This document shows positions 9,414 through 20,880 of a DNA stretch of 23,048 bases, one piece after another. The stretch spans positions 1 to 23,048 of the IMG/VR virus record IMGVR_UViG_3300023180_000421. One strand, written 5' to 3'. Below the pieces are notes generated by a model. The model saw nothing but the letters and a program-made list of their open reading frames with translations, ran no database searches and was not told the DNA's origin. The stretch comes from a virus. Numbering within the stretch: position 1 is the first letter of the stretch; every line of letters begins with the position of its first letter. Both the position numbers and the translations under genes were made by a program.

Positions 9414-10471
9414 CACATGTCAGCAAGTTTGCTGAAGTAACTCAGAGCATCATCCTCATCCTCATCATTAGAAGATGCTTGGGGAGTTGATTGAGATGCC
9501 TTGTAGCTCTGCTCAAGTTTCTCCATCACTTGCTCTTCACTCACACGCTTGGTTTCAACTGCAGCATAGTTGTCATACTCAGTCTCTTCATCCACAGTAG
9601 AAATACGAGTGGACTTCTTACCAAGCACATAGTCAAGACGCTTTTTCAAGTCATCATAGGACTTGAATTGGTCAGCAGCAGTCAGAGCAGCAAGAGAATA
9701 CTGCTTCTTCCAGAGTGCTTCCAGTGCATCATCATCTTCCAGCAGAGCACTGGGACGATCAAACTCAGACTTATCATAGTTCCAGTAACCATCCTTCTTC
9801 TGAAGTTTCAGTTTGAAGTTAGCACCACCCCAGAAGTCAAAGGGGTTGATGGGAGTTTCATCTTCAAACTCAGGTTGCATGACATCCATGATCTTGTCGA
9901 AGATCTTCTTACCAAACTTGTAAAGGAACACCCCACCCTCATTCTGAGGATTGGCAGGATCTTTCACAACATAGATGTTTGCATAGAAGGAGAGTTTGCG
10001 CTTTTGCTTACGCACAGTGTCTTTATCTGCATCATTACCACTGTTCCACAGTTCACGATTCAGTTCACTAACAGGATCCTTTTGGTTGAGAGTAGTGAGA
10101 GAATTCTCAATGTACCAACCACCAGGACCTTGGAATGCATGGGAGAACAGTTTGACCCAAGGCAGATCTTCTCCTTCAGGAGCAGGCAGGAAGCGGATTA
10201 CAGCATATCCATTACCAGACTTATCCATTTCTGGTTTCCACAGGCGGTCATCAGCACCACCACTACCAGTATTATTCATCTTTTCAACTTCCTTCACCAG
10301 TTTGCTGGTGAGAGAACCCAGAGAAGATTGCTTTTTGAGATCTTTGAAAGACATTTGGTATACTCCGTATTTGTTGTATTTGGTCTGTTCCCTTGGCTTT
10401 GTCTGGGGATCGGGTAGCCCCTTGAACCATGAACTATAGGACTTTTTCAGTGGATTGTCAAGGAAACTCAT
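9413..10471 (-). CDS. 32: Single-stranded DNA-binding protein gp32
   Basis: A 352-aa protein matching T4 gp32 (301 aa). It contains NGYAVIRFLPAPEGE, SFYANIYVVKDPANPQNEGGVFLYKFGKKIFDKI and FWGGANFKLKLQKKDGYWNYDKSEF, the OB-fold core. The C-terminus is acidic (NDEDEDDALSYFSKLADM), as in T4, where it recruits partner proteins. It coats single-stranded DNA during replication and recombination. The T4 zinc site is not kept: the His (LFSHAF) remains, but the three Cys positions read as Ser or other residues (WYIENSLTTL, DPVSEL). The ATG at 10471 fits a TGATG junction with the upstream gene better than the TTG codon one position earlier. Confidence 0.92.
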   Translation of the reverse strand: MSFLDNPLKKSYSSWFKGLPDPQTKPREQTKYNKYGVYQMSFKDLKKQSSLGSLTSKLVKEVEKMNNTGSGGADDRLWKPEMDKSGNGYAVIRFLPAPEGEDLPWVKLFSHAFQGPGGWYIENSLTTLNQKDPVSELNRELWNSGNDADKDTVRKQKRKLSFYANIYVVKDPANPQNEGGVFLYKFGKKIFDKIMDVMQPEFEDETPINPFDFWGGANFKLKLQKKDGYWNYDKSEFDRPSALLEDDDALEALWKKQYSLAALTAADQFKSYDDLKKRLDYVLGKKSTRISTVDEETEYDNYAAVETKRVSEEQVMEKLEQSYKASQSTPQASSNDEDEDDALSYFSKLADM

Positions 10472-10806
10472 CAAGAATCATGGATGTTTTTCTTCATTGA
10501 CTCCAGCACTTTAGTCATGTTGGAGAAGATGTAGTTCAGATCTACATCCTCAGGAAATCCCAAAGACCTTGCAGAGTCAAGGATCTTTTCCTTCATTGCT
10601 TTTGCATCTGGATCATCAGACAAACTCATTCTGGTGTAAAGAATTTTCTGCTTCTCCAATAGTTGAGCCATGACTTCCACATGCTCAACCTTTTGTTCCT
10701 TTGTCATGGTAGGAAACTTCCAGACACTATCATATACTTCCTCTTGAAGTCTGGTTATTTCCTCCATCTCTTGTCTGACTAATTCAGACCCAAAAAAATC
10801 ACTCAT
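10471..10806 (-). CDS. DUF1825-like protein in the gp59-gp32 interval
   Basis: A 111-aa helical protein starting MSDFFGSELVRQEMEEI. The pattern (SFF-SE-VQ-E start, EHVEVMAQLLEKQKILYTRMSLSDD in the middle) resembles DUF1825, a family of small cyanobacterial proteins, as recalled. It sits between gp59 and gp32 and some cyanophage annotations may call it gp33, but the gene at 11411 fits T4 gp33 better. The ATG at 10806 overlaps the gp59 stop as ATGA and is preferred over an upstream codon four positions earlier. Function unknown; a role alongside replication or late transcription is inferred from position. Confidence 0.6.
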   Translation of the reverse strand: MSDFFGSELVRQEMEEITRLQEEVYDSVWKFPTMTKEQKVEHVEVMAQLLEKQKILYTRMSLSDDPDAKAMKEKILDSARSLGFPEDVDLNYIFSNMTKVLESMKKNIHDS

Positions 10807-11414
10807 GTTTCTCCGCAAATTATACCCTTCAGGGTTTTTCTGTATTGGAATATATCTATATGTAGGAAAGCATCATACTTTTTCATCCTCATTGATATAA
10901 ATTTCCAGACAGGATCATCCAGTTTCTTATCAAACTTATTCTTGAATCCAAGAATTCTATTGAGGATCAATAGTGTTTCTAAAGAGATATTCTTTTGAAG
11001 ATGTTCTTTGATGATTGGTGGATGCTTTGTTCCCACAATCTCAAACATTGCATCAAAGTTCTTTCCATCAAAGACAGACTCAACTTCTCCCTTGAAAAAG
11101 TAAGATAAAGACTGCACCTTTCTTTTCCAAGAGGTGTAATTGTCTTCACCATTTTTCATGATCTCCCCAATCCAAAGAGTTTGAGGATCATCACAGTTCA
11201 CAAAATTAGAGACGAAGAAATCAATAGTCTCTTCATCATTCTTTTGTCTGCTCAACTTTTCAAAGAAGAATCTGTCCTTCCTTTTATAGAAGGATTGAAG
11301 AGATGCTCTGGACTTACCACAGTATTTGTGGTAGTCATAACTGTCTCTTGTAAAGTGATTCTTCAATCCAAGGTAAGACTTATAAACTTCAAAGGGAGTC
11401 ACTTTGGGGATCAT
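10803..11414 (-). CDS. 59: Helicase loader gp59
   Basis: A 203-aa protein, near T4 gp59 (217 aa). It opens with the family-typical MIPKVTPFEVYKSYLGLKNHFTRDSYDYHKYCGKSR and contains FYKRKDRFFFEKLSRQ. In T4, gp59 binds forked DNA and gp32 and loads the gp41 replicative helicase. The protein is basic and helical throughout. It overlaps gp33 upstream by an ATGA junction and the DUF1825-like gene downstream by another, giving a tight gp33-gp59-gp32 run close to T4 gene order. Confident identification. Confidence 0.88.
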   Translation of the reverse strand: MIPKVTPFEVYKSYLGLKNHFTRDSYDYHKYCGKSRASLQSFYKRKDRFFFEKLSRQKNDEETIDFFVSNFVNCDDPQTLWIGEIMKNGEDNYTSWKRKVQSLSYFFKGEVESVFDGKNFDAMFEIVGTKHPPIIKEHLQKNISLETLLILNRILGFKNKFDKKLDDPVWKFISMRMKKYDAFLHIDIFQYRKTLKGIICGET

Positions 11415-11674
11415 AAAGGAAGTTTAGCATGAGATGTTCTTTTGAGAAAATTCAAATCCATTGCTTCACATTTGATTTTCTCTTTCAATGGTTTAGAGAT
11501 CAGTTTGGGAACTGTCTCAATATCAATGTTGTTTTTCTCACAGAAGAATACAATGGCATCAATATACTTCATGTCATTGTTATCCTTCACAAGAGTTTCA
11601 ATCTCTTCTGAAAATTTTCTTGAGCAATAAAACTTACTCTCTAATAATTTGTTGATGTCATTTTCCTCTTTCAT
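11411..11674 (-). CDS. 33: Late transcription coactivator gp33
   Basis: An 87-aa protein. Its second half (MKYIDAIVFFCEKNNIDIETVPKLI, then LKEKIKCEAMDLNFL) aligns by eye with T4 gp33 (112 aa), including the YLEA...FLEEN and EKI..EA..ENLL patterns. gp33 bridges host RNA polymerase, the gp55 sigma factor and the gp45 clamp to activate late promoters such as the one at 6001. The ATG at 11674 is chosen because it follows AGGA and leaves a 17-base overlap with the nuclease gene. An upstream in-frame extension would lie wholly inside that gene. Position next to gp59 repeats T4 order. Confidence 0.7.
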   Translation of the reverse strand: MKEENDINKLLESKFYCSRKFSEEIETLVKDNNDMKYIDAIVFFCEKNNIDIETVPKLISKPLKEKIKCEAMDLNFLKRTSHAKLPL

Positions 11675-12332
11675 ATTCCTGAAGTTTGAACTCAACAAAT
11701 TCTCTAATATATTCGGAAAGTAATTTGATGTACTTTCTTTTGTCATACTCTTCATAGACAACACATTCTCCATCTTCACAAGACATTATGATTACAAATT
11801 TCTTGACAGCAATTCCTGTCAATTCATAGAGCATACATGCATATGCTGCACACTGTACAAAGTAGTGCTCAATCCACTTCTTTGGTTTTGGTTTCTTTGA
11901 AGTTTTGAAGTCAATGATGGCTAGTTCACCATCATACTCAGCAATACAATCTACAGTTCCAGCAACACCAAGTTTTAGACTATAGAGTGATGATTCCAGA
12001 GCATGAATATTATTTATGAGATCAAGTTGTGGCTTGGATTGCTTGAACAAAAATTCAGAGAGTGGTTGGACTTCTGGAAGTGACTCATTCTTCAGATAGT
12101 ATTCAACAAGAGTATGCATGTCAGTACCACGACTGGTAGCAGCCTTGGTGATCTTATTTGCTTCATCATTTCCAACTCTTGCACGCCACTGACGAAAGAT
12201 CTCTCTATTGTAGTGACTGATGACAGAGGTGATAGATACTAACTTCTCACCATTGGGAGTATCATAGTACCTAACACCATCAATAGTCTGCCTATCAAGT
12301 TTTGGAATTTCAATATCTACATGTTGAAACAT
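11658..12332 (-). CDS. RecB/Cas4-like PD-(D/E)XK exonuclease
   Basis: A 224-aa nuclease. Its motifs are His73 in SRGTDMH, Asp128 in GVAGTVDCIAEYDG, Asp141 and Lys143 in AIIDFKTSKK, and the QxxxY motif Gln160-Tyr164 (VQCAAYA). This is the full active-site set of RecB-like single-strand exonucleases such as Cas4 and MGME1. It likely trims DNA ends in recombination-dependent replication or host DNA breakdown. Its ATG overlaps the phoH stop (TAATG). No cysteines are arranged for a Cas4 iron-sulfur cluster, so it is closer to the MGME1/phage exonuclease branch. Substrate unknown. Confidence 0.8.
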   Translation of the reverse strand: MFQHVDIEIPKLDRQTIDGVRYYDTPNGEKLVSITSVISHYNREIFRQWRARVGNDEANKITKAATSRGTDMHTLVEYYLKNESLPEVQPLSEFLFKQSKPQLDLINNIHALESSLYSLKLGVAGTVDCIAEYDGELAIIDFKTSKKPKPKKWIEHYFVQCAAYACMLYELTGIAVKKFVIIMSCEDGECVVYEEYDKRKYIKLLSEYIREFVEFKLQEYERGK

Positions 12333-13093
12333 TACATACCCAGTTGCAATTTAGCCATGATGTACTCTTTAACAAGTCCACTTCTGCAGATATCCTCTGC
12401 ACCAAATTCTATTGTATCAAAAGATGGCATATTTTGCAAGATTCTCATGAAGTCCATGATACCAGTTCTTTCTGATGTCTTCACTAAGTCAGACTGAGTG
12501 GCATCACCACAGAACATAATCTTAGAATCCAAACCAATTCTGGTGATAATGGAATCCAGTTCATGGAAGTTCAAGTTCTGGAATTCATCAACAATGATGA
12601 TTGCATTATCAAAGGTAGTACCACGAATGAATGAGGTGCTCCAGAAACTAATTGTCCCTTGTGTTTTGAGATTTGCATACAGCATTTCAAATGCAGCATC
12701 ATCAGGCATCTCAAACATGTACTTCACCATATTCTTATATGGGATTTGGTACAGAGATGACTTATCCTCATGGTCCCCAGGAAGGAATCCAATCTCTCTG
12801 GTAGCTACAAGAGACCTGACAAGGTAGATCTTCTCATAGGGTTTCTTGGGATCCAATACATCCAGAAGAGCATTGTAGAGGGTAATAAAGGTCTTACCAG
12901 TTCCAGCACATCCATATGCTACCAGGTTTTTATCCTTCTTATACTCCTCAAAGAATTTTTCCTGGTTATCTGTGAGTGGTTCAATCTTCTTGATGTAATC
13001 AAGGTTGATTGGTTTCTTTCTCTTCATGGTTTTGTTGCTCATACCAAAGGGAACTGGATTGGTACCGATACCTGCTTTTGCTTTTCTTGGCAT
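12332..13093 (-). CDS. phoH: PhoH-like ATPase
   Basis: A 253-aa P-loop protein. Walker A is GCAGTGKT at residues 61-68 and Walker B is IIIVDEFQNL around 168-170. Family landmarks LVRSLVATREIGFLPGD (residues 91-107) and FCGDATQSDL follow. PhoH-like proteins are predicted RNA-linked ATPases found in most cyanophages, historically tied to phosphate starvation, though the phage role is unresolved. The gene lies between an 82-aa protein (6-base gap) and the exonuclease (1-base overlap). No Pho box was seen upstream. Confidence 0.9.
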   Translation of the reverse strand: MPRKAKAGIGTNPVPFGMSNKTMKRKKPINLDYIKKIEPLTDNQEKFFEEYKKDKNLVAYGCAGTGKTFITLYNALLDVLDPKKPYEKIYLVRSLVATREIGFLPGDHEDKSSLYQIPYKNMVKYMFEMPDDAAFEMLYANLKTQGTISFWSTSFIRGTTFDNAIIIVDEFQNLNFHELDSIITRIGLDSKIMFCGDATQSDLVKTSERTGIMDFMRILQNMPSFDTIEFGAEDICRSGLVKEYIMAKLQLGM

Positions 13094-13099
13094 ACTTAA

Positions 13100-13348
13100 T
13101 TAGAAAGGTTTTACTTTTGCACCAGGTGCTTTGGATGCTTTACGCAGCACATCATTCCATCCTGGATGGGACTTTTGCAGTTTGTCTGCCCACTCCCCAA
13201 CTTCACCTACCCCAGGAGCAGTAGATGGATCCGAATAGTCTCTTGTCCATTCAGGATTGTCTGCTTTCCACTGGTCCCAGTCATGAACACTCATCACAAC
13301 TTCTTTTTGTTCACCAGTTTCGATATTGACTACAGGATAAGTTGCCAT
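13100..13348 (-). CDS. Conserved 82-aa cyanophage protein (FmdB-like region, no zinc ligands)
   Basis: An 82-aa protein beginning MATYPVVNIETGE and containing WDQWKADNPEWTRDYSD, with the basic C-terminus APGAKVKPF. The overall pattern resembles small FmdB-like phage proteins, but the paired cysteines of the zinc ribbon are absent. It lies between thyX (24 bases upstream) and phoH (6 bases downstream), in the nucleotide and DNA metabolism run. A sequence close to the late promoter (TCTAAATA) lies at 13370-13377, over the thyX stop. Function unknown. Confidence 0.7.
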   Translation of the reverse strand: MATYPVVNIETGEQKEVVMSVHDWDQWKADNPEWTRDYSDPSTAPGVGEVGEWADKLQKSHPGWNDVLRKASKAPGAKVKPF

Positions 13349-13372
13349 ATTAAAAAATAATGTGTGTAATAT

Positions 13373-14011
13373 TTAGACCCACTCAAGGGCTTCTGCAATC
13401 ACAGGGAACTGCTCAGCAAAGATTGCTTTGCACATCTCTGCAATTTCCATGTGTTCTTTCTGAGTTCCATTGGCAGATCTCAGATCAATGTAGTGCATCC
13501 AACTGCGCAGAGAACCTGACATGTAAAGTCTGGTAGGAGTTGCCAGAGGGAGAACAAAGCGAGCACACTCTTTTGCCACACCATTATCAAGCAAGTGCTG
13601 ATACAGACTCATACCTTGAGCAAAGTAGGTTTCAATCTGCTTGTTAGACAATGCTACAAACTCAGGATCCAGGTCGTCAATAGAATTCTGGCGATTCTTG
13701 GTGTCTTGACGACGAAGTTCTGGGACTGGGATCGTCTCTGAGAGTAGGGAAGAATCAGCATAGCGTTGTGAAAATTCCTGGAATGTAAATGACCTATGAC
13801 GCAAAATCTGAGCTGCCAGACCTCTGGTAGTTTCAATCTCCAGAGTCATAAATGCCTGCTCAAAGATGCTCCAGTGCTTGTGTTTGATGCAATACTTCAG
13901 GAGACCAGCAAACTTATCATTGTCCTGGTTGTTGGGGTTAGAAACCCTTGCACAGTAAGCAATGTGTTGCTCTGCGTCTGGTGTGAAAGAAACTAATTTT
14001 ACTTGTTGCAT
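13373..14011 (-). CDS. thyX: FAD-dependent thymidylate synthase ThyX
   Basis: A 212-aa enzyme converting dUMP to dTMP with methylenetetrahydrofolate and FAD/NADPH. The ThyX signature RHRSFTFQEFSQRY is at residues 71-84, and the C-terminal substrate region has SLRSWMHYIDLRSA. Length is normal for phage ThyX. It supplies dTMP for genome synthesis. The ATG at 14011 is preceded by a strong GGAGGAG ribosome binding site, stronger than most in this window. It overlaps the end of the upstream small gene by 13 bases. Confidence 0.93.
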   Translation of the reverse strand: MQQVKLVSFTPDAEQHIAYCARVSNPNNQDNDKFAGLLKYCIKHKHWSIFEQAFMTLEIETTRGLAAQILRHRSFTFQEFSQRYADSSLLSETIPVPELRRQDTKNRQNSIDDLDPEFVALSNKQIETYFAQGMSLYQHLLDNGVAKECARFVLPLATPTRLYMSGSLRSWMHYIDLRSANGTQKEHMEIAEMCKAIFAEQFPVIAEALEWV

Positions 14012-14187
14012 GGTTCTCCTCCTTTGAATTGTTTACGACACTTCTTTACTTCTTTCAATTCTGTCTTGATCATCTTATATGCAGTTTCACTATCAATCTT
14101 ATCACCCATTTCCATGGCAATGATAACATCTACACGTGTACCAAAGTGCTGCAGTGCTCTCTCAAAACAATCCAACTCTTCATACAT
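13999..14187 (-). CDS. Hypothetical 62-aa protein upstream of thyX
   Basis: A 62-aa helical protein starting MYEELDCFERALQHFG and ending KQFKGGEPCNK. The ATG at 14187 overlaps the previous stop by 8 bases and is preferred over longer in-frame extensions that lie inside that gene. It carries three cysteines spread along the chain, with no metal-binding spacing. It overlaps thyX by 13 bases, so translation is probably coupled. No family recognised. Confidence 0.6.
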   Translation of the reverse strand: MYEELDCFERALQHFGTRVDVIIAMEMGDKIDSETAYKMIKTELKEVKKCRKQFKGGEPCNK

Positions 14188-14350
14188 GATCCTCTTCTCC
14201 ATAATAGACTTCATCATAGTCATCAATGTAAGGAACAACTTCCTCATACTGATAGTTGACCATTGGATTCTCATCAAGAAGTTCTTCTTTCAATCCTTCA
14301 AGAACCAACTCAAGTTTGCAGATTAGTTTCTGAACTTTTTCTTTATTCAT
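14180..14350 (-). CDS. Hypothetical 56-aa acidic protein
   Basis: A short gene of 56 residues. The N-terminus (MNKEKVQKLICKLELVLEGL) is an amphipathic helix and the C-terminal half is very acidic and tyrosine-rich (VVPYIDDYDEVYYGEEDHV). Its ATG at 14350 overlaps the upstream stop as ATGA, and its end overlaps the next start by 8 bases. The unbroken chain of overlaps is the main evidence that it is real. Acidic Tyr-rich peptides of this type sometimes mimic nucleic acid, but nothing here proves that. Confidence 0.55.
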   Translation of the reverse strand: MNKEKVQKLICKLELVLEGLKEELLDENPMVNYQYEEVVPYIDDYDEVYYGEEDHV

Positions 14351-14577
14351 TTGTTACCATTGATAAAATATGCATTGAAGTAAGCAATTATGCCATGAGA
14401 GATTTGGTTACCTTGAGAAACCCAATCATGCGCACACTCATAGATGTCTTGGGTTGAGTATGGTGCTTCATCAATCTGAGCACCACCATATTTTAGCATA
14501 AGAATGCTCAGACATTCCTGCCTCAGTTTCATTCTTTCTGGAGTGTACCTCCAATCAGAATTCTCCGTCATCATCAT
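14347..14577 (-). CDS. Hypothetical 76-aa protein
   Basis: A 76-aa protein (MMMTENSDWRYTPERMKLRQ...). It has a helical, cysteine-containing body: YECAHDWVSQGNQISHGIIAYFNAYFI. Three possible ATG starts lie at 14577, 14574 and 14571; an AAGGATG-type binding site precedes them. It overlaps the upstream gene by 23 bases and the downstream gene by an ATGA junction. No family was recognised. Its surroundings are other small accessory genes transcribed leftward. Confidence 0.6.
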   Translation of the reverse strand: MMMTENSDWRYTPERMKLRQECLSILMLKYGGAQIDEAPYSTQDIYECAHDWVSQGNQISHGIIAYFNAYFINGNK

Positions 14578-14713
14578 TCACATCCTTATAGGTCAAAGAT
14601 TGATGTGGTGCATTTTCCACATATTGTTCTGGATCAGAGTAGACTTCTGCTTCCAAGGACTCTACTAATAATTTTAGGTTTTTTACAATTAATTTTAGGC
14701 GTTCCTTTTCCAT
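14555..14713 (-). CDS. Hypothetical 52-aa coiled-coil protein
   Basis: A 52-aa protein starting MEKERLKLIVKNLKLLVESL, a heptad-like Leu/Val helix, then an acidic tail ending DVNDDDGEF. The ATG at 14713 is chosen because a terminator and a promoter lie just upstream; an in-frame extension would run through the terminator. The transcript leader would be only about 16 bases long and no ribosome binding site is visible. It is the first gene of the leftward run leading into thyX. Function unknown. Confidence 0.55.
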   Translation of the reverse strand: MEKERLKLIVKNLKLLVESLEAEVYSDPEQYVENAPHQSLTYKDVNDDDGEF

Positions 14714-14735
14714 TTGATAGAGTGTCTTTGTTTTT

Positions 14736-14764
14736 ATTTTACATAAAAAAAGAGGGGCAGTCAA
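14736..14764 (-). promoter_or_regulatory. Sigma70-type promoter fused to a terminator
   Basis: On the minus strand TTGACT (14759-14764) and TAAAAT (14736-14741) are separated by exactly 17 bases. The -35 hexamer is the loop of the terminator at 14745-14770. Transcription would start near 14729 and read the 52-aa gene and the genes leading to thyX. Confidence 0.6.
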
Positions 14765-14770
14765 CCCCTC
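14745..14770 (-). terminator. Intrinsic terminator after the 60-aa gene
   Basis: Minus-strand stem GAGGGG/CCCCTC with a seven-base loop TTGACTG, followed by seven T. It lies 9 bases after the gene at 14779-14961. Confidence 0.8.
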
Positions 14771-14778
14771 AACAAAGA

Positions 14779-14961
14779 CTATTCTAAAATCCTCCTACAT
14801 ATCCTTTTGCATGTGCCTTGATCTTCATCACATTCAATTAGACAATTATAGTAATCATTAATAATATCAGACTCATCAATGCTCCTATCTAAAGTTTGGT
14901 CTAATTTAGTTATACTTTGTTTCCACCCAGCTAACTGGTTATAAGAAATTAGATTGTGCAT
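14779..14961 (-). CDS. Conserved cyanophage small protein with C-terminal cysteines
   Basis: A 60-aa protein, MHNLISYNQLAGWKQSITKLDQ... with the C-terminal cysteine pattern CLIECDEDQGTCKRICRRILE. The pattern is recalled from other T4-like cyanophages. Four cysteines over 16 residues could form disulfides or bind metal. The ATG at 14961 is preferred over one 12 bases upstream because GGTGG lies at a suitable distance. It stands alone between two terminators. The 125 bases upstream (14962-15086) hold no gene, only a weak TAGAAT -10-like element and a GAGGTGAG purine run. Confidence 0.65.
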   Translation of the reverse strand: MHNLISYNQLAGWKQSITKLDQTLDRSIDESDIINDYYNCLIECDEDQGTCKRICRRILE

Positions 14962-15086
14962 GATAACCACCATTGATAATTAAGCACATGATATAGATCG
15001 AATTTAGTACACTTTTCTCACCTCTATAATTCTACACTATCTATTAGATTTTGGTTCAGAAAGATACAAAAATTTATGCCTACGTG

Positions 15087-15115
15087 TTTATACCTAAAAA
15101 AAAGAGGGAGATCAA
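15087..15115 (-). promoter_or_regulatory. Sigma70-type promoter fused to a terminator
   Basis: Minus-strand TTGATC (15110-15115) and TATAAA (15087-15092) are separated by 17 bases. The first four bases of the -35 are the TTGA tetraloop of the terminator at 15096-15123. It would drive the isolated 60-aa gene at 14779-14961 through a leader of about 120 bases. Confidence 0.5.
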
Positions 15116-15123
15116 TCCCCCTC
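15096..15123 (-). terminator. Intrinsic terminator overlapping the end of the 51-aa gene
   Basis: Minus-strand stem GAGGGGGA/TCTCCCTC (8 bp with one G-U) and tetraloop TTGA, followed by eight T. The TGA stop of the 51-aa gene is in the loop. Confidence 0.75.
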
Positions 15124-15267
15124 AAACTTGAATATTTTATCAAACCACTCATCCAAATGAATGAGATAGCATGACCAGTAATTGCAACCTCTGTATGTTA
15201 ATTGATAACATGCAGGAGGTCTATTGTCTTTATCCATGTCATCATAATGATAGACATAGTTATCCAT
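15112..15267 (-). CDS. Hypothetical 51-aa protein, aromatic and cysteine-containing
   Basis: A 51-aa protein, MDNYVYHYDDMDKDNRPPAC..., with YQLTYRGCNYWSCYLIHLDEW in the middle. It is rich in Tyr and Trp with three cysteines. The ATG at 15267 has a good AGAGGTG binding site. The LTYRG stretch recalls the opening of the DUF4278-like protein two genes upstream, which may be chance. Its stop codon lies inside the following terminator, so it is the last gene of this short operon. Function unknown. Confidence 0.6.
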   Translation of the reverse strand: MDNYVYHYDDMDKDNRPPACYQLTYRGCNYWSCYLIHLDEWFDKIFKFEGD

Positions 15268-15270
15268 TTT

Positions 15271-15393
15271 TCACCTCTTTGCTACACAGTGACCTGCCAT
15301 GCAAAGTTGTGCGTTCTTTAGTTTTTTCTCCTTAACTTCTTTTGCCTTAATGACAGAAAGCCAGTTAAGTTTATTGACCTGAGGTTGTGTCAT
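15271..15393 (-). CDS. Hypothetical 40-aa basic peptide
   Basis: A 40-aa, lysine-rich peptide: MTQPQVNKLNWLSVIKAKEVKEKK, ending AGHCVAKR. The ATG at 15393 overlaps the upstream stop as ATGA and is preceded by GAGGTGG, a good binding site. The end lies 3 bases before the next gene. The strong binding site and the overlap support it as a gene. Basic helical peptides of this size can bind nucleic acid or RNA polymerase, but no function can be assigned. Confidence 0.55.
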   Translation of the reverse strand: MTQPQVNKLNWLSVIKAKEVKEKKLKNAQLCMAGHCVAKR

Positions 15394-15521
15394 GATACCA
15401 CCTCAACCTTCTCAGTGTGCTTGATACCACGGTAGGTTTCTACCACAGTATGATGCTCAACCTTTTGTTGGTTAGGGCGATTGGATGTGTCATACTTGAC
15501 ACCACGATAAGTAACCTGCAT
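15390..15521 (-). CDS. DUF4278-like small protein
   Basis: A 43-aa protein, MQVTYRGVKYDTSNRPNQQ..., with a second YRGIKH near residue 31. This matches the recalled DUF4278 pattern (M-L-YRG--Y at the start, YRG near the end), a family of tiny cyanobacterial proteins also present in cyanophages. Function is unknown. The ATG at 15521 has a clear AGGAG binding site. It is joined to the next gene by an ATGA overlap. Host origin is plausible but unproven. Confidence 0.65.
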   Translation of the reverse strand: MQVTYRGVKYDTSNRPNQQKVEHHTVVETYRGIKHTEKVEVVS

Positions 15522-15587
15522 TGGTTTACTCCTGAAATACTAGGGTGAAATTAATCTCCCGTTCCTTCAGTCGTTTGCGGACTATGG

Positions 15588-15779
15588 TCAATAATCAAAA
15601 CATGATGGGTCAGTGCCCTCAATTGTTCTATTGATGAAGTCTTTCTTTTGATCAAAATTGAGCAACTCAGAGCGTGCAATACGCCCAATCATCCAGTTAG
15701 ATTGATCACAATTTAAATAATGTGCAGGATCAACTGGTTGTCTTGTAATCAAGTTGAAAAAGATAAGTGCTTCAACCAT
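15588..15779 (-). CDS. Hypothetical 63-aa protein, first gene after a strong promoter
   Basis: A 63-aa protein, MVEALIFFNLITRQPVDPAHYLN..., ending GTDPSCFDY. No family recognised. It is the first gene downstream of a near-consensus sigma70 promoter (15859-15888) and a long 5' hairpin (15811-15846), so it should be expressed early with host polymerase. The ATG at 15779 follows a weak CGGAGC element. A 66-base gap without a gene separates it from the DUF4278-like gene. Confidence 0.55.
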   Translation of the reverse strand: MVEALIFFNLITRQPVDPAHYLNCDQSNWMIGRIARSELLNFDQKKDFINRTIEGTDPSCFDY

Positions 15780-15810
15780 AGTCTGAACGCTCCGTTCCGC
15801 GACTTACTTG

Positions 15811-15846
15811 CGTCTCATTTGCTATTTGCGAATAGCAAATGGGATG
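15811..15846 (-). repeat. Long inverted repeat (16-bp stem) in a 5' leader
   Basis: An 11-bp perfect stem (CATTTGCTATT/AATAGCAAATG) with loop TGCG extends by five more pairs (two G-T) to 16 bp. No T-run follows on either strand, so it is not a normal terminator. It begins within a few bases of the expected transcription start of the promoter at 15859-15888 and would form a hairpin at the 5' end of that RNA. Confidence 0.8.
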
Positions 15847-15853
15847 AACGATA

Positions 15854-15868
15854 GGTCTATTATAGACC
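15854..15868. promoter_or_regulatory. 15-base palindrome over the -10 element (operator candidate)
   Basis: GGTCTATTATAGACC is a perfect palindrome around a central base and covers the TATAAT of the strong leftward promoter. Such placement is typical of repressor operators. No repressor is identified in the window. Confidence 0.5.
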
Positions 15869-15888
15869 CCATATATTATATATGTCAA
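15859..15888 (-). promoter_or_regulatory. Near-consensus sigma70 promoter
   Basis: Minus-strand TTGACA (15883-15888) and TATAAT (15859-15864), both perfect, with an 18-base spacer. The -35 overlaps the stop of the upstream gene. It is the strongest host-type promoter seen here, consistent with early expression of the small-gene block to its left. Confidence 0.8.
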
Positions 15889-16067
15889 CCTTGGAAATCT
15901 TTTGCTTCCTCAATCATCTTGGAGATAATTGTCTCTGTTCCATCAATGGATTTCACAGTGAACAGATTTGATTTCTGATACTTTTTGAGTTTCTTGTATT
16001 TCTTCAACAACCTTTCCAGATCTTCTGGTGGCAGATCAAACTCAACGTCATAAAAACCTTTACTCAT
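15885..16067 (-). CDS. Hypothetical 60-aa protein
   Basis: A 60-aa protein, MSKGFYDVEFDLPPEDLERLLKKYKKLKKYQKS..., with a central Lys/Leu helix and a short beta-like C-terminal half (FTVKSIDGTETIISKMI). The ATG at 16067 overlaps the upstream stop as ATGA. Its end overlaps the -35 element of the following promoter. It is the last gene of the leftward run from about 18553. No family recognised. Confidence 0.6.
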   Translation of the reverse strand: MSKGFYDVEFDLPPEDLERLLKKYKKLKKYQKSNLFTVKSIDGTETIISKMIEEAKDFQG

Positions 16068-16321
16068 TTCTTTTTCTTAGTCAAAGGATCATCCCAGACT
16101 TTTGGATTTGATCTACCTTCAGTCTGTTTAAAGTTGATAAGATTCTCTCTATACCTATCCCAGTAGTGATCAAAGATATCAACCTTTTTACTACAAAGAA
16201 CTATGTCCCATTGCTTAACTTCATCCTTGATATACTCTACCAAGTATGCAGTACAAGGTAGAGATCTATCATTTGCTAACTCAGGGTCACAGTTTTCACG
16301 AATAACTCTGATTTTACTCAA
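16064..16321 (-). CDS. Hypothetical 85-aa protein with TTG start
   Basis: An 85-aa protein, SKIRVIRENCDPELANDRSLPCTAYLVEY..., ending in a basic run DPLTKKKK. The first codon appears to be TTG at 16321, overlapping the upstream TGA stop (TTGA), with AGGT just before it; no ATG is available before residue 25. Mixed strand/helix make-up with WDIVLCSKKVDIFDHYWDRY in the middle suggests a small folded domain. It is joined to the next gene by an ATGA overlap. Function unknown. Confidence 0.6.
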   Translation of the reverse strand: MSKIRVIRENCDPELANDRSLPCTAYLVEYIKDEVKQWDIVLCSKKVDIFDHYWDRYRENLINFKQTEGRSNPKVWDDPLTKKKK

Positions 16322-16812
16322 GACCTATTTCCCCACTGGATATCAGGATATGCTTGTCTAACAACATCATGAGTGATCTTGTACTTAGACTGCAGCACTT
16401 TATCCTTCACCAGACAAAGAATATCTGCCTCTTGGGGGTGGAGACCTTCCAAGATTTGAATGAACATGCTCTCTCTACGTGTCTTAGAAAGGCTATCATT
16501 TCCACCCTTCACAAAATGGTAGAGATTTCTCCACTCCTTGCGAAGTGAAGTATGATCAGTTCCCACTGGAACCTCATTTTTATTGAAAGGAACTTGTCCC
16601 TCAGGAAGCAAGGAAATGATGCTCTCATCAAAATTCCAAATCAGAACAGCAGTCAATGCCTCAGTTCTGTGCTCCTTCAAAAGTTCTACTTTCTTTGCAT
16701 TTGTTCTTTGCTTGCCAACCAATTCCAGAATTTCAAAAATAAATGGATTTGGAGGAAGTTTAGTTACTGTCGTAGTTGCTGTCGTCGTCTTCTTCTTCGT
16801 AGTCGAAGCCAT
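16318..16812 (-). CDS. Conserved T4-like phage protein (DUF6433-like)
   Basis: A 164-aa protein. After a Thr/Lys-rich N-terminus (MASTTKKKTTTATTTV) comes a helical body with FIFEILELVGKQRTNAKKVELLKEH, FVKGGNDSLSKTRRESMFIQILEGLHPQEADIL and VVRQAYPDI. The pattern is that of a conserved family in T4-like phages, recalled as DUF6433, with no known function. The ATG at 16812 follows GAGG. The first 53 bases overlap the end of the preceding gene in another frame. It is followed by a TTGA junction. Confidence 0.7.
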   Translation of the reverse strand: MASTTKKKTTTATTTVTKLPPNPFIFEILELVGKQRTNAKKVELLKEHRTEALTAVLIWNFDESIISLLPEGQVPFNKNEVPVGTDHTSLRKEWRNLYHFVKGGNDSLSKTRRESMFIQILEGLHPQEADILCLVKDKVLQSKYKITHDVVRQAYPDIQWGNRS

Positions 16813-16996
16813 TTTCAAACCTCACTGCTAAAATTTCGTCAGGGATTACATTCCCACTTTCATCAAACATCTCAGGATGATATTTATTCATTTTGATGTC
16901 TTGTAGATATGTTTGAGCATTCCACCCAATTACTACCCCCACTAAGAGAAATAAAATAGAGATGAGTGAACTAAAGGTAAGAGTTGCTGCTAACAT
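16760..16996 (-). CDS. Small membrane protein with acidic tail
   Basis: A 78-aa protein with one N-terminal membrane segment (TFSSLISILFLLVGVVIGW) and a soluble part containing YHPEMFDESGNVIPDEILAVRFE, a pattern recalled from other T4-like cyanophages. It ends in a very acidic run (DYEEEDDDSNYDSN). The ATG at 16996 is preferred because it follows GGAGAAAG and the previous stop directly. The acidic tail is encoded in the overlap with the next gene. Function unknown; it probably sits in the host membrane with the tail in the cytoplasm. Confidence 0.7.
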   Translation of the reverse strand: MLAATLTFSSLISILFLLVGVVIGWNAQTYLQDIKMNKYHPEMFDESGNVIPDEILAVRFENGFDYEEEDDDSNYDSN

Positions 16997-16997
16997 T

Positions 16998-17186
16998 TTA
17001 CTTTCTCCAAGGTTTTTTTCTGACATCTAGATGAAGTTCTAGGTAGAAATGAAACTCTCTTCGAAAGAGAGAGACAAGTTTACCAAACTTCATTTGAAAA
17101 GTTTTAGGTTCCTCCTCTCTCCTTTTGTTTTTTCTCAATAATAACTCAACACCCCTATTAATTGCAAGGGCATTGTCACTTTCCAT
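16998..17186 (-). CDS. Hypothetical 62-aa basic protein
   Basis: A 62-aa protein, MESDNALAINRGVELLLRKNKRREEEP..., very rich in Lys and Arg and ending HLDVRKKPWRK. The ATG at 17186 lies one base after the upstream stop and is preferred over longer in-frame extensions inside that gene. Its stop is one base before the next start. No family recognised. Composition would suit nucleic-acid or membrane binding, but that is a guess. Confidence 0.55.
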   Translation of the reverse strand: MESDNALAINRGVELLLRKNKRREEEPKTFQMKFGKLVSLFRREFHFYLELHLDVRKKPWRK

Positions 17187-17187
17187 G

Positions 17188-17541
17188 TTATTTAGAGGAC
17201 TTCTTTTTTCTTCCTGGTTTTTTTTCTTGCTCATATTTCCAAGCATCCTCAAGAATACCGTACAAATAGTCCTTTATTTTTCTTGCCTCTGGTTTGCCAA
17301 GATGACCATAAGCTTCTCTCAACTGTTTATGTTCAGAGTCTGCACCACCCTCCAGGTATTCCTCAAGGTCATAGATGATGTTATTGATATTTTGAGCAGT
17401 TGGACTACTGATGAATCCTTCTACATCAAGCTTGGTTGCCTTTGAGTCTTTTAGGTAAGCATACATGTTCAACATAAACTTTCCTTCAAAGGCATAGTCT
17501 ATGGTGCTTTCAACAACATCACAAAGTTCTTTGTAGTACAT
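17188..17541 (-). CDS. Conserved hypothetical 117-aa protein
   Basis: A 117-aa, mainly helical and acidic protein, MYYKELCDVVESTIDYAFEGKF..., with DLEEYLEGGADSEHKQLREAYGHLGKPEARKI in the middle and a basic tail PGRKKKSSK. The ATG at 17541 overlaps the glutaredoxin stop as TAATG, so it is probably translated together with it. The regular helix pattern suggests a small helical bundle. Function not recognised. Confidence 0.65.
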   Translation of the reverse strand: MYYKELCDVVESTIDYAFEGKFMLNMYAYLKDSKATKLDVEGFISSPTAQNINNIIYDLEEYLEGGADSEHKQLREAYGHLGKPEARKIKDYLYGILEDAWKYEQEKKPGRKKKSSK

Positions 17542-17777
17542 TACACTAATTGATTCTCCTGCAAATATTTAACAGTTTCAACACATCCACCAATAGTTTC
17601 CTCTCCACAGATCACTTGAGGGAAAGTACTGTTCTCCCCAAACTCACTGTAGAATTGTTCTTTGGTAAAGTCCTTATTCAGTTTATAGATTACATGTTGA
17701 AGTTCTGCCATCTTGAGAACCTTTTCAACCTTTGTGCAATAAGGGCATCCATCCTTTGAGTAAACTGTGAATGTCAT
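17541..17777 (-). CDS. nrdC: Glutaredoxin
   Basis: A 78-aa glutaredoxin. The redox motif CPYC is at residues 11-14 (YSKDGCPYCTKVEKVL) and the glutathione-binding region includes STFPQVICGEETIGGC with the expected cis-Pro. In T4-like phages this class reduces ribonucleotide reductase, supplying dNTPs for replication; the symbol follows T4 nrdC. The length is standard. It begins just after a 52-aa gene, 7 bases downstream. No nrdA/nrdB genes lie in the window. Confidence 0.88.
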   Translation of the reverse strand: MTFTVYSKDGCPYCTKVEKVLKMAELQHVIYKLNKDFTKEQFYSEFGENSTFPQVICGEETIGGCVETVKYLQENQLV

Positions 17778-17784
17778 GGTAGTG

Positions 17785-17943
17785 TTACTGTTTGTTTTTT
17801 AGTTTGTAAAAATCCTTACATGATAAAACTTGGTGAGTGTATTCTGGATACTCTCTTTTCATGATGATAGGAACAGCCATCACACCTGGCCATTTCCCTT
17901 CAAAGAATACTACTTTGTTTTCCTCATCAATGATTTTTTGCAT
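17785..17943 (-). CDS. Hypothetical 52-aa protein
   Basis: A 52-aa protein, MQKIIDEENKVVFFEGKWPG..., continuing VMAVPIIMKREYPEYTHQVLSC and ending KLKNKQ. It looks like a small beta-rich domain. The ATG at 17943 lies 2 bases after the upstream stop, with GGAGG about 12 bases before it. The gene sits between two clear small genes and fills the gap exactly, which supports it. No family recognised. Confidence 0.6.
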   Translation of the reverse strand: MQKIIDEENKVVFFEGKWPGVMAVPIIMKREYPEYTHQVLSCKDFYKLKNKQ

Positions 17944-17945
17944 GA

Positions 17946-18155
17946 TTAGAGTTTGCCTCCAACTGTTCCCTCATGAACAACTTCAGGTTTTTCCCAACCC
18001 TCTTGGTTTCCCTTCAGATAAAAACGAGTTGCTGAAATACAAGCACTTTCAGTTAGAGCAGAGACCAGTCCATTACCATCTTTATCTTTACTATGCCAAA
18101 GAAATCTTGCTTTCTCCACATAGAAGTTATCATCAATTAGTTGCTTTGTACTCAT
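17946..18155 (-). CDS. Hypothetical 69-aa protein
   Basis: A 69-aa protein, MSTKQLIDDNFYVEKARFLWHSKDKDGNGLVS..., ending VHEGTVGGKL. The KDKDGNGLVS stretch resembles half of an EF-hand loop (D-x-D-x-N-G), although a complete calcium site with a following acidic position is not evident. It overlaps the previous gene by 23 bases. No family recognised. Its place in the leftward small-gene run suggests early host-takeover function, but this is inference from location only. Confidence 0.6.
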   Translation of the reverse strand: MSTKQLIDDNFYVEKARFLWHSKDKDGNGLVSALTESACISATRFYLKGNQEGWEKPEVVHEGTVGGKL

Positions 18156-18408
18156 GCTTTTGCTTCAATTCAGGGTTAGGTTGTGAAGGAACAACTGGGT
18201 TCCTATTCACTGCTTCAATAACAATGAATGCATCATTTTGATAACTTACTGTTCCAAAAGGTTTTGCCCACTTTGGATTAGCACCTTCAGTTTGATGAAT
18301 ACCACTATTGGCAACTCCACCAATCTTGACTCTGATATCATCATCAGCAGTCCATCCAAGTTCTTGGAGAGCAATGGAAAGTTTGCCCAACCAATCAGCA
18401 CTCTTCAT
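18133..18408 (-). CDS. Hypothetical 91-aa protein
   Basis: A 91-aa protein, MKSADWLGKLSIALQELGWTADDDIRVKIGG..., with GTVSYQNDAFIVIEAVNRNP in the second half, suggesting a small alpha/beta domain. The ATG at 18408 is chosen because it follows a strong GAGGAG site; an extension to 18441 would lie inside the neighbouring gene. It overlaps the upstream stop by 14 bases and the next gene by 23 bases. Function unknown. Confidence 0.6.
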   Translation of the reverse strand: MKSADWLGKLSIALQELGWTADDDIRVKIGGVANSGIHQTEGANPKWAKPFGTVSYQNDAFIVIEAVNRNPVVPSQPNPELKQKHEYKATN

Positions 18409-18553
18409 CACATTCTCCTCTGGTTCTAAGTTTCCAATCATTGGGTTGGTTCAACTGAGTTGTATTATAAGGTACTTTTGGTGGTCTGTAAAGATTTGGC
18501 CAAGTGTCTTGTATGATCTCAGCAAGTTTATGTGGTGTGTCAGAACCAATCAC
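18395..18553 (-). CDS. Hypothetical 52-aa protein with GTG start
   Basis: A 52-aa frame with a GTG start at 18553 that overlaps the upstream stop (GTGA). The peptide reads (M)IGSDTPHKLAEIIQDTWPNL, then YRPPKVPYNTTQLNQ, and ends RTRGECDEEC with two closely spaced cysteines. Coherent composition, exact fit in a chain of overlapping genes and the downstream 14-base overlap support it. No family recognised. Confidence 0.5.
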   Translation of the reverse strand: MIGSDTPHKLAEIIQDTWPNLYRPPKVPYNTTQLNQPNDWKLRTRGECDEEC

Positions 18554-18684
18554 GGATTATGATTTTTATTTTGTTTGATTTTTTGATAACCCCAGACTCC
18601 CAGGGCACCGATACCCAGACCGGCAAGACAACAAAGAAACATATGAATAAGGTGTTCGTAAAATGAGTGGTCAGCGTGATTCAT
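18550..18684 (-). CDS. 44-aa single-pass membrane protein, petE operon
   Basis: A 44-aa protein, MNHADHSFYEHLIHMFLCCLAG, then LGIGALGVWGYQKIKQNKNHNP. One membrane segment (residues 14-32) is Gly-rich, with two adjacent cysteines, a His-rich N-terminus and a basic C-terminus. The ATG overlaps the previous stop (ATGA). It is the third of three tiny membrane genes chained behind plastocyanin. The size is that of small photosystem or cytochrome b6f subunits, but no such subunit was recognised. Confidence 0.6.
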   Translation of the reverse strand: MNHADHSFYEHLIHMFLCCLAGLGIGALGVWGYQKIKQNKNHNP

Positions 18685-18773
18685 AGTTTAGGTTTTTTGA
18701 TTGGCCAAGTTGCTTCCATTGTTGCTGTCAACAAAAAAGCAAATCCAAAGATTAGTAAGTGCTCCATATTCAT
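18681..18773 (-). CDS. 30-aa membrane peptide, petE operon
   Basis: A 30-aa peptide, MNMEHLLIFGFAFLLTATMEATW, ending PIKKPKL. Residues 5-18 are a hydrophobic helix and the tail is basic. The ATG at 18773 overlaps the preceding stop as ATGA; a second ATG two codons later could also serve. Its own stop overlaps the next start. At this size, existence rests on the overlap chain and the membrane-like make-up. Function unknown. Confidence 0.5.
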   Translation of the reverse strand: MNMEHLLIFGFAFLLTATMEATWPIKKPKL

Positions 18774-18892
18774 CCAAAGTAAATTACACTAAGAGTGAAC
18801 ACAACAAAGATGATAACTGTAAACATCATCAATCCTACACCTGCCCAGGCAACCCAGGCAGGCATAGGTTCATAGTTGTGGTTATGAGACAT
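18770..18892 (-). CDS. 40-aa single-pass membrane protein following petE
   Basis: A 40-aa protein, MSHNHNYEPMPAWVAWAGVG followed by LMMFTVIIFVVFTLSVIYFG. The N-terminus has two histidines and the rest is one long membrane helix ending at the C-terminus. The ATG at 18892 overlaps the end of petE by 11 bases. Being translated directly after plastocyanin suggests a link to thylakoid electron transport, though it may be only a convenient position. No match to PetG/L/N, PsbM, PsbI or Hli patterns was seen. Confidence 0.6.
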   Translation of the reverse strand: MSHNHNYEPMPAWVAWAGVGLMMFTVIIFVVFTLSVIYFG

Positions 18893-19205
18893 GCACAGTT
18901 CCGATCATTCCAGCACCCTTGTGGGGAGCACACCAGTAAGTATAGTCCCCTGGCTCTGGAAATGCAATATCAAAACTCTCACCAGGTGCAAATGCAAGAC
19001 CTTCATGAGAGAGTTCTGGATGATCCTCCACAACCACATTGTGTGGAGGAAGCATGTTGTTGACAAAGTGAACTGACTCACCAGCAGCAATAGAAACCTC
19101 AGCAGGTTCAAATACTAAATTGCCATTGGAACCCATTTGAACATCAACAGCCCATGCAGGAAGAGCAAAGAATAGTGTAGCAAAAAGTGCAAGAACAAAC
19201 TTCAT
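18882..19205 (-). CDS. petE: Plastocyanin
   Basis: A 107-aa precursor. The signal peptide MKFVLALFATLFFALPAWA would be cleaved after Ala19, giving an 88-aa mature protein for the thylakoid lumen. The type 1 copper ligands are His55 (PPHNVVV), Cys92, His95 and Met100 (YWCAPHKGAGM). Plastocyanin carries electrons from cytochrome b6f to photosystem I, so the phage copy may keep electron flow going during infection. The loop CAPHKGAGM has Ala-Pro-His-Lys, where cyanobacterial host sequences as recalled usually have Glu-Pro-His-Arg. No clear ribosome binding site precedes the ATG. It starts 23 bases after the 66-aa gene. Confidence 0.93.
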   Translation of the reverse strand: MKFVLALFATLFFALPAWAVDVQMGSNGNLVFEPAEVSIAAGESVHFVNNMLPPHNVVVEDHPELSHEGLAFAPGESFDIAFPEPGDYTYWCAPHKGAGMIGTVHVS

Positions 19206-19228
19206 AAAAGTTTATGCAACTACTCTAT

Positions 19229-19429
19229 CTATATCTTCCTCATATCCCTATATCTGGGGTTTGTTTTGACTTCCTGATTTACCATCTCACCCAATTCGTC
19301 AGCACACTTACACCAAGCCTTCCTTGCAGTTTTTGATAGAGGATCATTCTTTTGTTTCAGTTCAAACCAGATGTGCCACAGTGCAGCACATTCATCTGAT
19401 TTCTTCTGTAGATGTGGTTCCCTGTACAC
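19229..19429 (-). CDS. Hypothetical 66-aa protein with GTG start
   Basis: A 66-aa protein, (M)YREPHLQKKSDECAALWHIWFEL..., continuing KARKAWCKCADELGEMVNQE and ending NPRYRDMRKI. It is helical, with three cysteines, two in a CKC pair. The first codon is GTG at 19429, inside the preceding gene (38-base overlap); no ATG is available upstream of residue 50. It precedes petE by 23 bases. Function unknown. Confidence 0.55.
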   Translation of the reverse strand: MYREPHLQKKSDECAALWHIWFELKQKNDPLSKTARKAWCKCADELGEMVNQEVKTNPRYRDMRKI

Positions 19430-19649
19430 TCATACCCATGGGGGTTGTGTGCCCTTGACTACCACTATTTACGTCATTCCAATGCCTTACTGCATTGGCA
19501 ACAATAGCCACATTGGTAACCAGGTAAGAAATAAAAATAAGGGTGCGTATGCCAGCAATAAGATCTGATTCTCTATCATTTTTTCCAGACTTTTCTCCAA
19601 GTGCTTTTGCCCATAGTCTCCAAATGTTCTTTTTCTTTTTCTTACCCAT
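19392..19649 (-). CDS. Conserved cyanophage membrane protein, 85 aa
   Basis: An 85-aa protein. A basic N-terminus (MGKKKKKNIWRLWAKALGEKSGKNDRESDLI) leads into a single membrane helix (TLIFISYLVTNVAIVANAV) and then a Thr/Ser-rich tail. The pattern is recalled from many T4-like cyanophages, where its function is unknown. The ATG at 19649 follows GGAG just after the psbD terminator. A promoter overlapping that terminator (19686-19714) probably drives it together with the 66-aa gene and petE. Confidence 0.7.
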   Translation of the reverse strand: MGKKKKKNIWRLWAKALGEKSGKNDRESDLIAGIRTLIFISYLVTNVAIVANAVRHWNDVNSGSQGHTTPMGMSVQGTTSTEEIR

Positions 19650-19660
19650 TTTTCTCCACT

Positions 19661-19685
19661 AAAAAAGAGACCCAAAGGGTCTCTT
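19661..19685 (-). terminator. Terminator after psbD
   Basis: A 9-bp perfect stem (AAGAGACCC/GGGTCTCTT) with a three-base loop, followed on the minus strand by a T-run. It starts 32 bases after the psbD stop. Confidence 0.8.
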
Positions 19686-19714
19686 ATTATACAGTGTATT
19701 TAGTTTTTGATCAA
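19686..19714 (-). promoter_or_regulatory. Sigma70-type promoter at the psbD 3' end
   Basis: Minus-strand TTGATC (19709-19714) and TATAAT (19686-19691) with a 17-base spacer. The predicted start near 19679 falls inside the terminator hairpin, so new transcripts would lack its 5' arm and escape it. It would drive the 85-aa gene, the 66-aa gene and petE. Confidence 0.6.
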
Positions 19715-19717
19715 TTA

Positions 19718-20782
19718 TTAGAGAGCATTACCTCTTGGCAATACTTCTTCTGGGAACACAAAGTTCTCATGTGGTTGATCAACAGGTGCCATCCAAGCAC
19801 GTAGACCTTCATTTAGAAGAATGTTCTTGGTGTAAAAGGTTTCAAATTCTGGATCTTCTGCTGCTCGAATTTCTTGCGATACGAAATCATACGCTCGTAG
19901 ATTGAGAGCAAGACCGATAATACCAATACTAGAAGTCCAAAGCCCCATGACAGGAACGAATAGCATAAAGAAATGAAGCCAACGCTTGTTGCTAAAAGCA
20001 ATTCCAAAAATTTGAGACCAAAATCGATTGGCAGTAACCATAGAATAGGTCTCTTCTTCTTGAGTTGGTTCAAAGGCTTTAAAAGTGTTTGCTTGATCAC
20101 CGTCTTCAAACAGAGTATTCTCTACTGTAGCACCATGAATGGCACAAAGTAAAGCCCCTCCAAGAATTCCTGCAACTCCCATCATATGAAATGGATTAAG
20201 CGTCCAGTTGTGGAAGCCCTGTAAGAACAGAAGAAATCTAAAGATTGCCGCAACGCCAAACGATGGCGCAAAGAACCAACTGGACTGTCCAAGAGGGTAC
20301 ATGAGGAATACACTAACAAATACGGCAATAGGACCTGAAAAAGCAATCGCATTGTACGGTCTAATTCCTACGAGTCTGGCAATCTCAAATTGCCTGAGCA
20401 TGAATCCTATAAGGCTGAAAGCTCCGTGGAGCGCCACAAAAGTCCAGAGTCCCCCAAGTTGGCACCAGCGGATGAAATCTCCCTGAGCTTCAGGACCCCA
20501 AAGGAGTAGAAGGCTATGTCCGAGAGCATCAGCAGGAGTAGATACAGCAGCAGTAAGAAAGTTACACCCCTCCAGATATGAACTCGCAATGCCATGGGTG
20601 TACCAACTGGTAACGAAGGTGGTTCCTGTAAGCCACCCGCCAAGAGCGAGATAAGCAGTCGGGAATAAAAGTAAGCCAGACCAACCGACAAAAACAAACC
20701 TATCACGCTTAAGCCAGTCATCGAGAACATCGAACCACCCCCTTTGTTGAATTGGTTGTGAAAGTGTTGAAGATACCATCAT
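19718..20782 (-). CDS. psbD: Photosystem II D2 protein
   Basis: A 354-aa, full-length D2. Nearly all family landmarks are present: [53 protein letters not shown], the redox tyrosine in [11 protein letters not shown], the chlorophyll and quinone/iron histidines in [22 protein letters not shown] and LHFFMLF, and the C-terminus [17 protein letters not shown]. With D1 it forms the photosystem II reaction centre; phage copies replace host protein during infection. The ATG at 20782 directly abuts GGAGG, so the second ATG at 20779 is equally possible. It has its own promoter and terminator. Confidence 0.97.
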
Positions 20783-20806
20783 CCTCCAAAATTACTTCTC
20801 CTATTT

Positions 20807-20835
20807 AGTTTACACTTCTTTACATAGAAAGTCAA
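20807..20835 (-). promoter_or_regulatory. Candidate psbD promoter
   Basis: Minus-strand TTGACT (20830-20835) and TAAACT (20807-20812) with a 17-base spacer. The adjoining ACTAAATA (20803-20810) also matches six of eight bases of the T4 late promoter, so early and late use are both possible. Confidence 0.45.
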
Positions 20836-20852
20836 TGGGTAAATGTGCTCAT

Positions 20853-20880
20853 AAAAAAACCTCTGAGAAAACTCAGAGGT
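20853..20880 (-). terminator. Terminator after the restriction-modification operon
   Basis: Minus-strand stem ACCTCTGAG/CTCAGAGGT (9 bp) with loop TTTT and a seven-T run. It separates the methyltransferase transcript from psbD. Confidence 0.85.

Follow-up and report, generated by a model that had tools for sequence, protein, structure and literature searches.

A probable nested terminator–promoter module in T4-like cyanophages and its probably accidental look-alike upstream of the phrog_665 gene

In the cyanomyoviruses S-PM2 and Syn9, early promoters of the host sigma-70 type consist of TTGACn and TATAAT at a distance of 17 nt (PMC2984593), and the promoter classes of cyanophages have been reviewed in the same article. 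A comparative genome paper (PMC3037559) predicted the promoters of cyanophages and their terminators separately. For E. coli, Kang et al. (2020; PMC6978380) reported that RNA polymerase often stays on the DNA after termination in vitro and is then able to initiate again from a promoter close by. A published description of terminator and promoter units that are embedded in each other or overlap was not found in the literature covered.

The window analyzed here, a 23,048-base IMG/VR virus fragment, belongs to a T4-like cyanophage with psbA, psbD, gp32, phoH and ThyX-type genes, and its nearest relatives in the phage collection are S-H68, RN05-S and S-RIM32. The general picture that emerged, to which we assign a probability of roughly 78%, is that T4-like cyanophages use a module in which a promoter is nested within an intrinsic terminator, and that the pairing of −35-like and −10-like boxes at the site originally flagged in this window (15123–15087, minus strand) is most likely accidental.

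The terminator upstream of the phrog_665 gene and the leader that follows it

The flagged site comprises the following features:
15104–15123, minus strand: hairpin of the predicted intrinsic terminator that closes the 51-aa gene (GAGGGGGA-TTGA-TCTCCCTC, 8 bp, −11.6 kcal/mol)
15096–15103, minus strand: U-tract (T8) of this terminator, with AGG next and then TATAAA
15110–15115, minus strand: TTGATC, −35-like, overlapping the loop; its pairing with TATAAA is not conserved
15087–15092, minus strand: TATAAA, −10-like, separated from TTGATC by a 17-nt spacer; final T missing

When the sequence was re-read, the stem with its TTGA loop (15123–15104), the arrangement TTGATC-17-TATAAA and the TGA stop codon of the 51-aa open reading frame (15267–15112, minus strand) inside the same loop were all found where the initial annotation had placed them. 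With a GC-rich stem, a loop of four and eight T residues directly after it, 15123–15104 is a predicted terminator of the 51-aa gene. The stretch 15115–15087 also has the layout of a sigma-70 promoter (spacer of 16–18 nt), with a −10 box that lacks the final T.

We consider it rather unlikely that this site is a working nested promoter, in which TTGATC in the loop and TATAAA would drive the phrog_665 gene in the same way as proposed below for 14770–14736. The spacer is exactly 17 nt, the value of real units, and one relative (L200) has the identical spacing at the orthologous place. However, among 99 distinct copies of the leader, the distance between TTG and TATAAA is flat across 13–24 nt and only two copies have 17, while a nearly identical sister contig (L011/L220) reads TTAATC at the position of TTGATC. 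It follows that the −35/−10 pairing is not maintained, and the flat spacing rules the site out as a conserved promoter. A terminator precedes the leader element in 48 of the 99 copies; in the remaining 51, which have none, a gene end mostly takes its place. Apart from the missing final T of the −10 box, the start codon lies 125 nt past that box rather than about 24 nt, as against 22 nt for phrog_878 and 21 nt for the gene after psbA elsewhere in the window, a further sign that the site differs from the other units. On these comparisons, the TTGATC match 17 nt before TATAAAC is most likely accidental, and the flagged site appears to be the weakest case of the nested layout and not a good member of it.

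What follows the terminator is conserved in its own right:
15066–15096, minus strand: conserved 31-nt element TAGGTATAAACACGTAGGCATAAATTTTTGT with two TAGGYATAAAY repeats 14 nt apart, including TATAAA (15092–15087); in at least 117 contigs, upstream of phrog_665 genes
15029–15034, minus strand: TAGAAT box, shared by every leader class of the leader alignment
15004–15012, minus strand: GTG-TAC-TAA mini-ORF; a start-stop or two-codon version in many relatives
14779–14961, minus strand: small gene (MHNLISYNQL...; phrog_665; Syn9 gp134; T4-GC 363) with a twin CX3C motif

The sequence after the flagged terminator is conserved at the DNA level in S-SKS1, S-PRM1 and Syn9. For the 31-nt sequence TRRGTATAAACTCGTAGGCATAAATTTTTGT, an exact 26-base match is present in at least 117 IMG/VR contigs; the element sits upstream of the small gene whose product begins MHN[LI]ISYNQLAG and also occurs without any terminator before it. 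TATAAAC is best described as the start of a separate, conserved leader of the phrog_665 gene. We see about even odds that TATAAAC-TCG-TAGGCATAAATTTTTGT is a protein-binding, late-promoter-like or other signal specific to the phrog_665 leader and unrelated to the terminator. Its 26 bases are invariant while the gene and its surroundings diverge, its 5′ edge is sharp, TAGGYATAAAY is repeated in tandem, and both CATAAATT and TATAAACA come close to NATAAATA, the late promoter of cyanophages (PMC2984593). On the other hand, an exact T4-type late promoter NATAAATA is not present at 15092, where TATAAACA deviates from the consensus (PMC2984593) by one mismatch, and one leader class lacks the element altogether. 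Unlike a general late promoter, the element never had more than one copy in any of the 17 complete genomes searched, nor did it have an exact match in the bacterial and archaeal genome collection; as a general phage promoter it was discarded on these grounds. A leader signal of this kind would be compatible with the nested-module explanation. The TAGAAT box (15034–15029), which precedes the start codon by about 70 nt, is kept even in leader classes without the 31-nt element and is a better candidate for a universal promoter of the phrog_665 gene than the flagged −35/−10 pair.

Some additional features of this gene and its leader deserve mention. The 31-nt element is near-invariant across diverse cyanophages. 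In two contigs (L170:2789–2816 and L212:4286–4313), it precedes not phrog_665 but a different gene, whose product starts with MKKLLLTLLLLGSILPSVEAG, and in one 8.8-kb contig (L179:1038 and 7212), element and gene occur twice with nearly identical upstream sequence, likely as a tandem duplication of the cassette. The leader often carries a ribosome-binding site followed by an ATG-TAA, ATG-CAC-TAA or GTG-TAC-TAA mini-ORF. The idea of a conserved RNA hairpin was dropped: RNAalifold gave no consensus structure for three leader classes, and Rfam covariance models applied to 14700–15160 produced nothing at gathering score and a single weak, chance-like hit. The phrog_665 gene is present in 352 phage records and is unannotated in several genomes (e.g., S-PRM1 and ACG-2014b). 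The twin CX3C motif of its product (CLIEC-x6-CKRIC) suggests a small helical hairpin of the disulfide or metal-binding kind.

The unit between phrog_665 and phrog_878 and its variants

The initial annotation had named two companion sites, and both exist as described:
14752–14770, minus strand: predicted terminator of the phrog_665 gene, whose loop region holds the −35 box TTGACT (14764–14759); conserved in orthologues
14736–14741, minus strand: −10 box TAAAAT, spacer exactly 17 nt, with the next start codon 22 nt further on
14555–14713, minus strand: downstream small gene MEKERLKLIVKN... (phrog_878), after the putative nested promoter
22250–22283, minus strand: psbA terminator (hairpin 22283–22265), then extended −10 TGC-TATAAT (22255–22250); no −35 box in the hairpin

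With TTG in the hairpin, a 17-nt spacer, a −10 box after the U-tract and stems that change in orthologues, 14770–14736 has all the traits of a textbook nested terminator–promoter module, as far as sequence comparison can tell. Forty-four of the 45 distinct orthologous sequences between phrog_665 and phrog_878 keep TTG in the loop with a spacer of 17 or 18 nt: 39 have TTG-17 followed by a −10 box (at least 4/6 matches), five have a spacer of 18, and one reads TTC. Around the constant loop, spacer and −10 box, there are 31 different stem/−35-context sequences (e.g., GAGGGG/CCCCTC, GGAGGG/CCCTCC and AGAGGGTTC/GAACCCTCT). Several pair types likewise occur at most stem positions among 132 units with a spacer of 17 nt, which were picked for having a stem, so that the percentage of paired positions is not independent evidence. 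The recurring feature is the geometry and not any particular stem. In one contig (L056:2005), tandem terminators lie between phrog_665 and phrog_878, and the nested promoter is found in the second one only.

These stems also bear on the suggestion that only the promoter is real, the role of the hairpin being to protect or process the upstream RNA at its 3′ end without terminating, or that polymerase reads through. We regard this as quite improbable, given that GC-rich stems of 6–12 pairs followed by T6–T8 are canonical intrinsic terminators and that the stems remain complementary as their sequence changes.

The psbA site is a different matter. Instead of a −35 box in the loop at 17 nt, it has CCCAGT, together with the extended −10 box TGCTATAAT; 22283–22250 is best classified, from its sequence, as a variant with an extended −10 box that lacks the −35 box. 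S-RIM32 (L307+4250) has the same layout as the psbA terminator with its extended −10 box.

Further arrangements were encountered. At psbD (window 19714–19665, minus strand), the order is reversed, with TTGATC-17-TATAAT just ahead of the terminator hairpin, so that a transcript begun there would meet the terminator at once. A nested unit in S-SKS1 (HQ633071, about 33279–33237, minus strand; L309) has the next annotated ATG 7 nt past TATAAT and would yield a leaderless transcript if this start is right. In the pelagiphage HTVC008M (L493:6238 and L732:25512), late-type TATAAATA/AATAAATA directly follows two of three strong terminators (0–100 kb), so that adjacency of terminator and late promoter reaches a SAR11 phage.

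Spacing between terminators and promoter boxes in cyanophages

Simple terminator-like sites are in excess in window positions 10000–23048 (20 versus 8.5 ± 3.1 in shuffles), and promoter-like sites by themselves show no excess in the window (38 versus 32.5 ± 5.9). As the window is a 23-kb fragment, the excess of the combined layout was assessed on relatives. Terminators were defined by a stem of five or more consecutive pairs (no more than one G-T, four or more G-C), a loop of 3–7 and six or more T in the next eight positions; a −10 box required at least 5/6 matches, including A2 and T6, and had to start 3–18 nt past the hairpin. Ten complete cyanomyovirus genomes yielded 158 strong terminators, and the addition of IMG/VR loci gave an extended set of 564 terminators, drawn from both genomes and contigs of cyanophages.

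In the ten genomes, a −10 box occurs at +3 to +18 (peak at 9–10) after 68 of the 158 terminators, compared with 25 at +23 to +38, and exact TATAAT is found 31 times in the near interval and three times in the distant one. Late-type NATAAATA/YTAAATA follows 31 of the 158 terminators versus two matches further downstream. When TTG was sought at spacers of 10–25 nt in the 68 terminators with a −10 box, 17 cases fell on spacer 17 and 0–2 on any other. The scan of terminators and −10 boxes against chance expectation that the initial annotation had proposed bore out the excess: in the extended set, TTG in the hairpin is located at spacer 17 in 93 cases (83 distinct sequences) and in 0–6 cases at any one of the remaining spacers between 12 and 23. 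After homology reduction to about 140 terminators without similar flanks, 18.4 units remain at spacer 17. Single-linkage clustering had chained 416 of the 564 terminators and greedy reduction was used instead; the peak at 17 appears under both. When downstream parts were swapped among hairpins with a −10 box, the mean was 4.4 and the maximum 12 in 20,000 permutations. The geometry of a terminator (3′ arm of about 7 nt, U-tract of about 7 nt) by itself tends to put the loop some 17 nt ahead of a −10 box and thus lifts the permuted mean above zero; the observed number needs coordinated positions beyond this geometry.

These figures decide against the view that the layout arises as a by-product of gaps that are compact and AT-rich, in which any terminator near a gene start would show a TATAAT-like hexamer. 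Short, AT-rich intergenic gaps do raise the background, and shuffled downstream sequence yields many matches of at least 5/6, owing to the T-run. However, such a by-product does not predict a peak at a single spacer, its loss upon permutation of hairpins and downstream parts, the ratio of 31 to 3 for exact TATAAT, or stems that change at one locus while the −35 and −10 boxes stay fixed, and we give it hardly any credence. Mere chance adjacency is ruled out by the spacer peak and the permutations.

TTG is present in the loop of 22 of 57 terminators with a −10 box after them versus 13 of 81 others (Fisher p = 0.005). Positions 4 and 5 of the −35 box played no part in the selection of units; A occupies the former in 72 and C the latter in 69 of 86 distinct units, related sequences included. 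The next start codon follows 4–97 nt (median 24) past the −10 box, starts and stops being assigned by simple ORF rules, and the upstream stop usually lies no more than 30 nt before the hairpin, so that the module is the whole intergenic gap. A TTGA loop arising merely from TGA stops applies to the flagged site; in the survey, the stop is inside the hairpin in one of 64 cases. Less favorable to the module is that the nested −35 box is confined to a part of the terminators with a −10 box (92 of 228, about 31% after homology reduction); 84 of the 228 lack both TTG at 17 and TGn, and no TTG-17 unit was found in Syn9, S-SM1 and P-SSM4.

The pattern TTGAC-N7-9-T6-N2-4-TATAAT was also searched in 2.9 million IMG/VR viral contigs. 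Among the matches listed, a hairpin with TTGAC in the loop was present at 50 of 118 sites, 40 of them with spacer 17, as against 5 of 107 when five bases were added to the pattern; 44 of the 50 contigs with hairpin sites, again among the matches listed, are cyanophage-like. In a cyanobacterial control (80 loci, 104 terminators), eight terminators had a −10 box, none of them exact, and none had TTG at 17; its picocyanobacterial subset of 26 contained none. T4 and related enterophages (0.37 Mb, 19 terminators) gave three −10 boxes, none exact and none at 17. The anatomy of the module, its spacing and conservation, the replacement of stems with fixed −35 and −10 boxes and the absence from controls are direct observations. 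Regarding the initial proposal of a reusable unit for packing small genes, the geometry indeed recurs far above chance and fills tight gaps, but the site that gave rise to the proposal is a poor member.

Proposed mode of action and comparison with known systems

In the module as we envisage it, the hairpin and U-tract would end the upstream transcript, with RNA released in the U-tract. The apical loop, or the loop plus its closing pair, would serve as the −35 box (TTGAC), and the 17-nt spacer would be made up of the 3′ arm, the U-tract and 2–3 additional nt (about 7 + 7 + 3). The −10 box would come immediately past the U-tract and the next gene would begin about 24 nt downstream. RNA polymerase with a host-type sigma-70 would recognize the −35 box in the loop and the −10 box behind the U-tract. 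We infer both that the two activities are exerted in the cell and that the promoter is read by this host-type enzyme.

It is also conceivable, though we think it unlikely, that the enzyme that releases the upstream RNA is left on the spacer of the next promoter and restarts there. Given the retention described in PMC6978380, a nested unit would, hypothetically, place the terminated polymerase on a promoter at once. If so, a row of small genes would be read as separate transcription units by a polymerase handed from each unit to the next, and hardly any intergenic DNA would be needed.

Use of the same 40 bases by terminator and promoter would explain how independently started small genes fit into gaps of a few tens of bases. 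For the thousands of contigs from uncultured cyanophages, the module would provide a searchable signature of transcription-unit boundaries. It would also be a natural test bed for the restart of RNA polymerase in a manner coupled to termination, which PMC6978380 showed in vitro only. A further implication would be that selection can act on the sequence of a terminator loop for a function beyond termination.

The module combines known elements in what may be a new way. With the canonical intrinsic (rho-independent) terminator it shares the GC-rich hairpin, the short loop and the T-tract; it differs in that the loop and the 3′ half also carry a sigma-70 −35 box and spacer, and in that the loop is constrained to TTGAC and is not a stable tetraloop such as TTCG. 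The recycling described in PMC6978380 was demonstrated in vitro on an E. coli template without a nested sequence, and neither in phages nor in vivo. The T4-type late promoter NATAAATA (as NATAAATA/YTAAATA) is likewise found right after terminators, but has no −35 box, which amounts to adjacency and not to nesting. Closest are the early promoters of S-PM2 and Syn9, which have the same boxes and the same spacer, whereas those of the module lie inside the preceding gene's terminator.
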